A DNA stretch of 20,342 nucleotides from positions 1-20,342 of the IMG/VR virus record IMGVR_UViG_3300030943_000200, one strand, 5' to 3'. The position numbers were made by a program, and so were the translations under genes. The notes under the pieces were generated by a model. It searched no databases. It was not told the DNA's origin and saw only the letters and a list, made by a program, of their open reading frames with translations. Origin of the DNA: a virus. Below are positions 681-11,029 of this stretch, in pieces (within the stretch, counting starts at the first letter, position 1; every line of letters begins with the position of its first letter).

Positions 681-698
681 GGAGCGCTTCGGCGCTTC
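681..698 (+). other. UUCG-tetraloop hairpin
   Basis: AGCGC (683-687) and GCGCT (692-696) close the very stable C(UUCG)G tetraloop at 687-692. The stem extends to G681-C698 through one G-T wobble. Its 3' strand overlaps the left arm (695-706) of the larger inverted repeat that follows, so the two structures would be mutually exclusive. Confidence 0.55.
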
Positions 699-828
699 GC
701 GATGAGAATCAGCACGGGGTCGGGGGACGCGCTGTGACAAGCAGCGGCTCTCGCGGGCAGGTCGGGCCCGCACCGGATGGTTTTTCTTCTTTTTCCCATC
801 CGCTCCCCGTGCGCTCCTCATCGCGAAG
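695..828 (+). ncRNA. Long branched inverted repeat / candidate structured RNA
   Basis: CTTCGCGATGAG (695-706) is perfectly complementary to CTCATCGCGAAG (817-828). After a 5/4-base internal loop, GCACGGGG (712-719) pairs with CCCCGTGC (805-812). Inside this 20-bp outer stem are three smaller hairpins: CGCTG/CAGCG (730-734/742-746), GCGGGC/GCCCGC (753-758/766-771) and CGGATGG/CCATCCG (774-780/796-802). The last has a pyrimidine-rich loop. No gene is convincing here. The block ends 10 bases before the ribosome binding site of the 40-residue gene at 851. It could be a leader or regulatory RNA, a stand-alone ncRNA or a DNA structure. No known riboswitch was recognised. Confidence 0.55.
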
Positions 829-1987: not shown

Positions 1988-3019
1988 GTGAAAAAGCGAC
2001 AGTACGCAGCAGAGCGCTATGAAGATCTCTACAGCGTTGATGGCGAACGCGAGCTGCGAGATTCTATTTCACGGTTTGTCACGACATACTGCGGAAAAAC
2101 CAACTACGCCGGAAATATGCTGGAATTTGACGGGTATGCCCTATGGAACACACACGCCCAGGTGATCGAGGCGAATAAAGCGCGACGCGAGCAGAGTGCG
2201 AAGGTGATCCAGAACCGCAACCATCAGAAGGCAGAGCGGAAGATCATACAGCTTATTCATGAGAATTTTAAGACAGGCGATCTTGAAATGATGGCATCGT
2301 TTGCAAAAGAGCCGGAAAACGGAAAAGAGGCACGCCGTGCATTGGATTGGTTTGTTCGTGAGTTGCGGGAAATATACAAAGAGCAGGGTGTCGAGCTGAG
2401 ATACCTTTACGTTGACGAATCCGAAGGGAAAGACGGGGAGCCGCTGCGCTTCCACTACCACATCTTCATGAATCTCGACGGAGTGATAAACCGCGACATG
2501 GTGGAAGACCTATGGCGGTCTCGCTTTGGGATCGCAAATGGGACACGCCTGTTTGAAACAGAGTTCGGGCTGACAGGATTCTCAAAGTATGTTCTCAAAG
2601 CCTCGCTGGCCGTGAAGAACCGCAGAAAGTGGAACTGTAGCAGAAACATGCGAAAGCCGGAAGAGCGCCGCAGCACCCGGCTTCCAAACGGAAAGACTCT
2701 GACCAAGAAACGCATGCAGGATTTACTTGAAAACAGGCTGGATCCGCGCAAATTTTTCGAAGACGCATTTCAGGGATACCGCTTTATTGACATACGCTCC
2801 AAAAGTTCGGAATTCGTCGGCGGCGTCTATCTCTATGTGCGGATGCGCAAAATACATGAGTCGGACAGTCGGACACCAAGTGCGTGCGCGCCCATGCGCA
2901 CACACGCGCACCAATATCAAAGCAGTAGCAACGCCCGACAACGCAGCAGCGGCGCGGGCGGCATGCCGGATTCTGATCCGGACAATCGGACAAAAAGAAA
3001 CGGAGTAAAAAATGAATAG
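1988..3019 (+). CDS. rep: HUH-type replication initiator (Rep, ORF2/G2P-like endonuclease)
   Basis: The 343-residue protein is a probable strand-nicking initiator. The metal-binding HUH motif is H156-Y157-H158 (FHYHIFMNLDG), preceded by a long helix and strand (ALDWFVRELREIYKEQGVELRYLYVDE). This is the typical order of rolling-circle replication proteins. The following GFSKYVLKAS carries a single candidate catalytic tyrosine, Y201. N-terminal residues 35-70 (CGKTNYAGNMLEFDGYALW...KARRE) are conserved-looking but of unknown role. The last ~55 residues are low-complexity and polar. GTG 1988 is chosen because GGAGG (1976-1980) lies 7 bases upstream; the open frame upstream runs through the origin repeats. 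It overlaps the next gene by 8 bases. Confidence 0.8.
   Translation: MKKRQYAAERYEDLYSVDGERELRDSISRFVTTYCGKTNYAGNMLEFDGYALWNTHAQVIEANKARREQSAKVIQNRNHQKAERKIIQLIHENFKTGDLEMMASFAKEPENGKEARRALDWFVRELREIYKEQGVELRYLYVDESEGKDGEPLRFHYHIFMNLDGVINRDMVEDLWRSRFGIANGTRLFETEFGLTGFSKYVLKASLAVKNRRKWNCSRNMRKPEERRSTRLPNGKTLTKKRMQDLLENRLDPRKFFEDAFQGYRFIDIRSKSSEFVGGVYLYVRMRKIHESDSRTPSACAPMRTHAHQYQSSSNARQRSSGAGGMPDSDPDNRTKRNGVKNE
2860..2981. repeat. Cluster of short direct and inverted repeats in the 3' end of rep
   Basis: GTCGGACA is tandemly duplicated at 2860-2875. TGCGC (2885-2889) pairs with GCGCA (2896-2900), enclosed by GTGCG (2880-2884) / CGCAC (2907-2911). CCGGAT (2966-2971) pairs with ATCCGG (2976-2981). 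The encoded protein tail is low-complexity, so DNA or RNA structure may be what is retained here. Confidence 0.45.
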
Positions 3020-9983: not shown

Positions 9984-10188
9984 ACTAACCATCCTTCGTC
10001 CATATCTTCCACCGTGGTTATGCGCAAAGCTCGGGCACCCGTGGCGCGATACAAGGTCCAGGCAATACGTGAAGATCGACGGGAAGAAAGTTGACTGCTG
10101 GGTGAACGAACGCCACTGCGATCGATGCGGAGCGACGGAGACGCTCTCAACAAAACCGATTGAGGAAGGGGAAACCGATGAGCCTTAG
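9976..10188 (+). CDS. Small zinc-finger protein
   Basis: The 70-residue product contains LCAKLGHPWRD and, about 27 residues later, HCDRCGATE. This C...H / C-x2-C module resembles small phage zinc-binding proteins and looks related to the N-terminus of the next gene. ATG 9970 is in frame but would be too close to the GGGAAAG ribosome binding site, so 9976 is used. Function is unknown. Confidence 0.6.
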   Translation: MSRLTILRPYLPPWLCAKLGHPWRDTRSRQYVKIDGKKVDCWVNERHCDRCGATETLSTKPIEEGETDEP

Positions 10189-11029
10189 CACGTATTTCAC
10201 GCAGCTGTTCTGCAAGCATGATGATCGGGCGATCGCGCGAAGTCTCGATAATCGATCCGTATTGTCTAAATGCAAAAAGTGCGGTCGTCTACTTGAATTC
10301 GAGAAGTTTCTAAACATCGAATACAGCATATCTGAGAAGACGTTTAAAACAGAGCGCGGCAGGTGGCTTGACATTCCGCCGCCGATCCCACCGATAAGCA
10401 ATAAGTTTTTTGATCAAGCACTGATTGATATCGCCAAGACGCGCCTTGTACACGACGGTTCAGGCCAGAAGCGAGAAATCCCGACCAACAGCAGCAAGCG
10501 CGTGGAGTTTCGTCGATACGAGATGATCGCGTCGAAAGATCAGGATAACCCATCCGTAGACCAGAAAAGAGACCTCGCACACAAACTGAAGAACGTTCAC
10601 AGCAGTACTGACGGCTACACGCTGGTGTCCTTGTGCAACGAAGCGGCAGTTGAGATTGAGCGGCTGCAGCGCACGCAAAAGATCACCGGCAGCACTTCCG
10701 ACGGCTACCACACCTTTGATGAGCTGTATCGCCACCGCGGGATCCTCTTCGCGCTGATCTGCGCCGACCATAAGGAAATCGCGTGGAAGTCAAAGAAGCA
10801 CCACGACGGCACGATGTACGACGGCATGTTCCTCTGCGGTATCGACACACCGTATGGCCAGGCAACGTATCACATGGATCTCGAACCGTTCTGGAACATG
10901 ATCAAGGTGCGAGAGCTGGAAACCGCACCGGAGTGGGACGGGCACACGCCTGACATGGCGCTTAACCGCATTGCGGCTATGGCAATGGATCGGTTCATCC
11001 CAATAGAAAAGGGAGTTTTAGAAGAATAA
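10178..11029 (+). CDS. WDGH-domain protein with N-terminal zinc module
   Basis: The 283-residue product has a small zinc module at the N-terminus (FCKHDD, then CKKCGRLLEF: C12, H14, C32, C35). A polar middle region (~70-170) follows. The C-terminal domain (~173-270) contains DGYHTFDELYRHRGILFALICADHKEIAWKSKKHHDGTMYDGMFLCGIDTPYGQATYHMD and PEWDGHTP, the WDGH motif at 253-256. WDGH-domain proteins are common in phages of Bacillota; to my knowledge their biochemical role is not established. ATG 10178 is preferred over TTG 10160 because GAGGAAGGGG precedes it. It overlaps the previous gene by 11 bases. Confidence 0.75.
   Translation: MSLSTYFTQLFCKHDDRAIARSLDNRSVLSKCKKCGRLLEFEKFLNIEYSISEKTFKTERGRWLDIPPPIPPISNKFFDQALIDIAKTRLVHDGSGQKREIPTNSSKRVEFRRYEMIASKDQDNPSVDQKRDLAHKLKNVHSSTDGYTLVSLCNEAAVEIERLQRTQKITGSTSDGYHTFDELYRHRGILFALICADHKEIAWKSKKHHDGTMYDGMFLCGIDTPYGQATYHMDLEPFWNMIKVRELETAPEWDGHTPDMALNRIAAMAMDRFIPIEKGVLEE

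Follow-up and report, generated by a model that had tools for sequence, protein, structure and literature searches.

The window analyzed here (20,342 bases) is the complete record of an uncultivated tailed phage of the gut type. Genes for the terminase subunits, the portal and the major capsid protein lie in its right part, and the left part holds a cut gene (2-511), a gap (512-850), an operon (851-1729), Rep and a ParB-like protein. Relatives of the ParB-like protein were located in Faecalibacterium phages, Agathobaculum and Anaerotruncus, and the host therefore probably belongs to the same order. A further protein, encoded at 10160-11029, gave a strong match to the WDGH domain (PF25311, E = 5e-38). 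The gap and its surroundings contain the following features, P1 being the outer stem of the branched domain:

2-511, + strand: upstream gene phrog_2428, function unknown, truncated by the contig end
518-535, + strand: GC hairpin (GCCGCGC-ACGC-GCGCGGC) immediately 3' of the upstream gene's stop codon, from fold and sequence
541-651, + strand: tRNA-Val-derived RNA without an anticodon, from covariance-model matches, a cloverleaf scan and alignment
661-677, + strand: pyrimidine tract CTTCTTCCTTCCATCCC, which predicted folds pair, in several registers, with the Shine-Dalgarno (SD) sequence at 838-844
681-698, + strand: cUUCGg hairpin (pairs 681-687/692-698) overlapping the outer part of P1, with a predicted probability of about 0 when the whole domain is present
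689-834, + strand: branched RNA domain, from its predicted fold (z = -4.64, 0 of 200 shuffles as stable)
838-853, + strand: SD sequence GGAGGA and ATG of the 40-aa gene at 851-973, from sequence
851-973, + strand: 40-aa ORF with a strong ribosome-binding site (RBS), first gene of the operon, codon use weakly coding-like (0.19)
942-1331, + strand: 129-aa gene, phrog_5984, second gene of the operon
1370-1729, + strand: HTH_3 regulator, final gene of the operon
1742-1782, + strand: terminator-like long hairpin with a T run that ends the operon (predicted fold -26.0 kcal/mol; 12-bp inverted repeat)

None of the ORFs in the gap has coding-like codon use, on which ground a protein-coding gap was rejected, and the genes at 2-511, 851, 942 and 1370 do look coding. 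The initial annotation had described the gap as free of genes; this holds for protein genes, but the tRNA-derived cloverleaf at 541-651 had been overlooked. The upstream gene also carries, at its 3' end (436-509), an 11-bp perfect inverted repeat (AATCCTCGCTG/CAGCGAGGATT) with more hairpins inside.

The branched fold at 689-834 is real and unusually stable, and it lies in a non-coding gap. Its outer stem P1, initially counted as 12 bp, is perfect over 13 bp (694-706/817-829) and is extended outward by a further stem of 4 bp (689-692/831-834). The perfect 8-bp stem (P2; 712-719/805-812) and the three internal hairpins (722-752, 753-771 and 774-802) were found as first reported, and the hairpins form a four-way junction closed by P1 and P2. 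Hairpin 774-802 carries a U/C-rich loop of 15 nt (781-795), and the 3' end of the domain's stem (834) falls 4 nt ahead of the SD sequence of the 851 gene. The minimum free energy of 676-850 is -88.2 kcal/mol against a shuffle mean of -68.6 (z = -4.64; none of 200 dinucleotide shuffles as stable), and an equally stable fold of the leader 652-835 arose in 1 of 400 shuffles. When 512-850 was shuffled 2000 times, 8 of the shuffles (0.4%) contained a perfect inverted repeat of 12 bp spanning no more than 150 nt. Among the 270 plus-strand 150-nt windows scanned, 676-825 ranked seventh (z = -4.0), below the strongest folds at about 1651-2025, which include both the terminator-like hairpin and the long one preceding rep. 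An 81% direct repeat was also observed between 661-676 (CTTCTTCCTTCCATCC), before the branched domain, and 786-801 (CTTCTTTTTCCCATCC), in its third hairpin, both copies being complementary to the purine-rich SD sequence.

We consider it rather unlikely that the fold is functionless, its inverted repeat being an accident, or a remnant of decay near what was once a tRNA gene, in a GC-rich intergenic stretch (63% GC vs 54% for the window). In sequence of the window's size, chance would yield 0.22 inverted repeats of 12 bp confined to 150 nt, no conservation was found, and the tRNA-derived neighbor has lost its anticodon. However, the z-score of -4.6 was obtained with dinucleotides controlled, a second perfect stem and three hairpins are nested inside the first stem, and in the neighbor at 541-651 pairing is preserved where both partners of a pair have changed, which argues for constraint at 541-651. 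It appears quite improbable that the domain instead acts as DNA, as a single-strand origin or a binding site that works with the rolling-circle-type Rep. The phage does encode such a protein (phrog_3584; 1988-3019), weakly similar to REP_ORF2-G2P, and large inverted repeats are typical of rolling-circle-type origins. Yet no such domain was seen near the nearest Rep relatives examined, and a long hairpin directly before rep (1878-1948) is a better origin candidate; the DNA reading is less likely because this hairpin adjoins rep in a more strongly folded stretch. The hairpin (GGCGGTGG...CCACCGCC, with CAATGCGGATAAG/CTTATCCACATTG inside) lies where folding in the window is strongest (z about -5 to -7) and is a candidate replication origin.

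Judged from its sequence, the RNA at 541-651 is a remodelled descendant of tRNA-Val. The acceptor stem (541-547/644-650) contains one C-A mismatch, the D stem (550-553/581-584) encloses a loop that holds a 20-nt palindromic hairpin (555-574), the anticodon-like arm (587-591/615-619) is extended by a hairpin (596-600/610-614), and the T arm (627-631/639-643) has the loop TTTGAAT. A hairpin-bearing segment of 23 nt replaces the anticodon loop, and decoding is therefore impossible. This was the single match of a cloverleaf scanner in the window, with matches in 4 of 40,000 gap shuffles, a frequency that serves as a rough guide because the scanner was set after the sequence had been seen. A covariance model built from 541-651 (R1) and run on 394 host-order genomes gave 14 matches, and of the 12 retrieved the best 10 were tRNA-Val(GAC) and the other two tRNA-His.

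Alignment to the tRNA-Val(GAC) of Oscillospirales-type hosts is full-length except for the D-loop palindrome and the 23-nt segment, with about 75% identity over the shared positions by our own count; the acceptor, D, anticodon-stem and T-arm sequences align, and double changes keep the pairs. Changes on both sides with pairing kept affected 15 of the 33 pairs in the tRNA alignment, which was fitted to the model and includes a pattern-picked phage sequence (L063, below), and as many were reached in none of 500 shuffles. The phage RNA differs from tRNA-Val in its D-loop palindrome, its replaced anticodon loop, the acceptor C-A mismatch and the T loop TTTGAAT, and in that ARAGORN called neither a tRNA nor a tmRNA at 541-651; Rfam likewise made no call there. 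A functional tRNA was thus rejected (7-nt anticodon loop replaced, no callable anticodon, no ARAGORN call), as was a class II tRNA with a long variable arm, for which a stem of 5 bp with a loop of 7 nt could not be placed by eye.

We tentatively propose that the branched domain may be a cis-acting structured leader, an intergenic RNA, of the operon 851-1729, a reading that is the likeliest of those considered and falls a little short of probable. That this locus is transcribed and processed, and that it affects translation or responds to a signal, is inferred. All genes run in the same direction and the operon closes with a terminator-like hairpin, both of which count for a leader. In the transcript models tested with starts at 541-652, the SD sequence is predicted to pair with 661-677. 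The predicted probability that it is unpaired is 0.03 for a transcript from 652, 0.65-0.70 with the 5' end at 678-700, and about 0.24 with 5' ends at 720-800, where the 5' arm of P1 is absent. The 851 SD is also among the least accessible of the starts checked in the window. Against the leader reading, occlusion is weaker (0.21) when the fold begins at 512 or 541. Equal occlusion arose in 47 of 400 shuffles of 652-693 (12%) and in 36 of 400 shuffles of 652-835 (9%) and is not exceptional. A search of 400-1000 for promoters of sigma-70-like types found none. The leader was seen in no relative, and a distant one (L155) has a 942-like gene without a comparable leader.

In this leader model, read-through transcripts from the upstream gene would pair 661-677 with the 851 SD across the closed branched domain, and translation of the 851 gene would be reduced. 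A transcript started or trimmed at about 678-700 would keep the branched domain intact and leave the SD free, and the intact domain would hold an internal anti-SD CUCC (813-816, beside the P1 arm) away from the SD. The tRNA-Val-derived RNA, upstream on the same transcript, might be where RNase P and 3' processing cut, and such processing would part the upstream gene from the leader.

The initial annotation had suggested a switchable leader in which the UUCG hairpin competes with the left arm of the outer stem. The leader part agrees with where the domain lies, with a fold beyond that of shuffles and with the SD pairing predicted, but the switch fares less well, since the UUCG overlap is minor and SD occlusion of this degree is matched by 9-12% of shuffles. 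The hairpin does exist (681-687/692-698), but it conflicts with no more than the outer 5 bp of P1 and the 689-692 extension and is compatible with inner P1. Forcing it yields -117.4 rather than -123.4 kcal/mol, a cost of about 6 kcal/mol, and it is therefore a weak switch candidate and was rejected as the main switch. A terminator switch formed by pairing 671-676 with 775-780 was also rejected (23 kcal/mol worse).

In T4 genes e, soc, 49 and I-TevI, the SD is hidden in long transcripts, and transcripts made late are without the strand that hides it (PMC3014915). As in those leaders, a 5' segment is here predicted to pair with the SD and a shorter transcript would free it. Unlike them, the phage locus places a four-way junction of about 145 nt between the pairing strands, and no sigma-70-like promoter turned up where one would be needed.

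Relatives of the branched domain were sought widely. The search covered IMG/VR (five proteins, three DNA patterns), genome contigs (Rep, ParB) and, for the Rep protein, genomes of the order and family. No relative was found by blastn against phages and plasmids, by the stem pattern in IMG/VR, by a covariance model of the domain (R2) in the 394 host-order genomes, or among the retrieved phage relatives and the neighborhoods of the closest Rep genes. This absence is weak evidence because R2 was built on one sequence and the collections may lack the records closest to the window. The sole match to a T-arm pattern (L017) lay in apparent coding sequence and was set aside as chance, and the terminase relatives (L003-L016) have little in common with the phage besides the terminase. 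The phage of L130 has a major capsid protein 76% identical to the one encoded here. The Rfam search proposed with the initial annotation returned no family for the domain at threshold: among riboswitches, leaders, sRNAs and ribozymes, none reached the gathering score and the matches were of chance quality (E 0.1-4). The near-matches Ms_IGR-8 and PrrB/RsmZ fell far below threshold, and a YrlA or bacterial Y RNA was rejected (no Rfam match; no Ro/TROVE Pfam domain in the scanned ORFs). The domain is novel, as first suggested, solely in having no match in Rfam and the collections searched.

The lack of any relative in the genomes searched also counts against the branched domain being a stand-alone phage ncRNA, made together with the upstream tRNA-derived RNA and cut free, a reading that we regard as unlikely. 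The four-way junction is self-contained and very stable, it lies immediately 3' of the tRNA derivative, and the U/C-rich 15-nt loop of hairpin 774-802 (781-795) could pair with the SDs of other messages. On the other hand, we found no terminator past 834 and no promoter ahead of 689, and the RBS of the 851 gene starts 4 nt downstream of the domain.

If expressed as the leader reading proposes, the locus would present a phage leader with an anticodon-less tRNA module ahead of a large branched domain beside a ribosome site, a combination of which no description was found in the literature searched. Expression would point to phages taking over the bodies of host tRNAs for processing or sensing, in genes that the usual tRNA finders overlook. 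A highly speculative extension, to which we give very little credence, is that the branched domain works together with the tRNA-Val derivative as a single regulator: host tRNA machinery (RNase P, CCA addition or a synthetase) would read the tRNA part, its processing state would hide or free the ribosome site of the regulator operon, and the phage would thereby sense the translation state of its host.

Similar tRNA-like genes were observed in other phage contigs. Seven of these (L063, L050, L058, L068, L070, L073 and L087), retrieved by a tRNA consensus pattern and not by homology of the locus, share D-loop hairpin inserts with 541-651. The gene in L063 (3956-4069 of IMGVR_UViG_3300043621_000039) has expanded D and anticodon arms, the extended anticodon arm being a further likeness to 541-651; L063 has no branched domain resembling R2, and the stretch around the gene seems to contain more tRNA-like hairpins. 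The other six combine the D-loop inserts with an anticodon loop of about 4 nt (CCTGCC-TCAC-GGCAGG), are mostly uncalled by ARAGORN, and look like a common family of non-decoding phage tRNAs. Four more matches to the tRNA pattern (L060, L065, L076 and L084) have a long 'D arm' enclosing an extra arm with a CTCTAAA anticodon-like loop, and the unusual tRNA-like genes of L060 and L065 lie near tRNA-Pyl calls.
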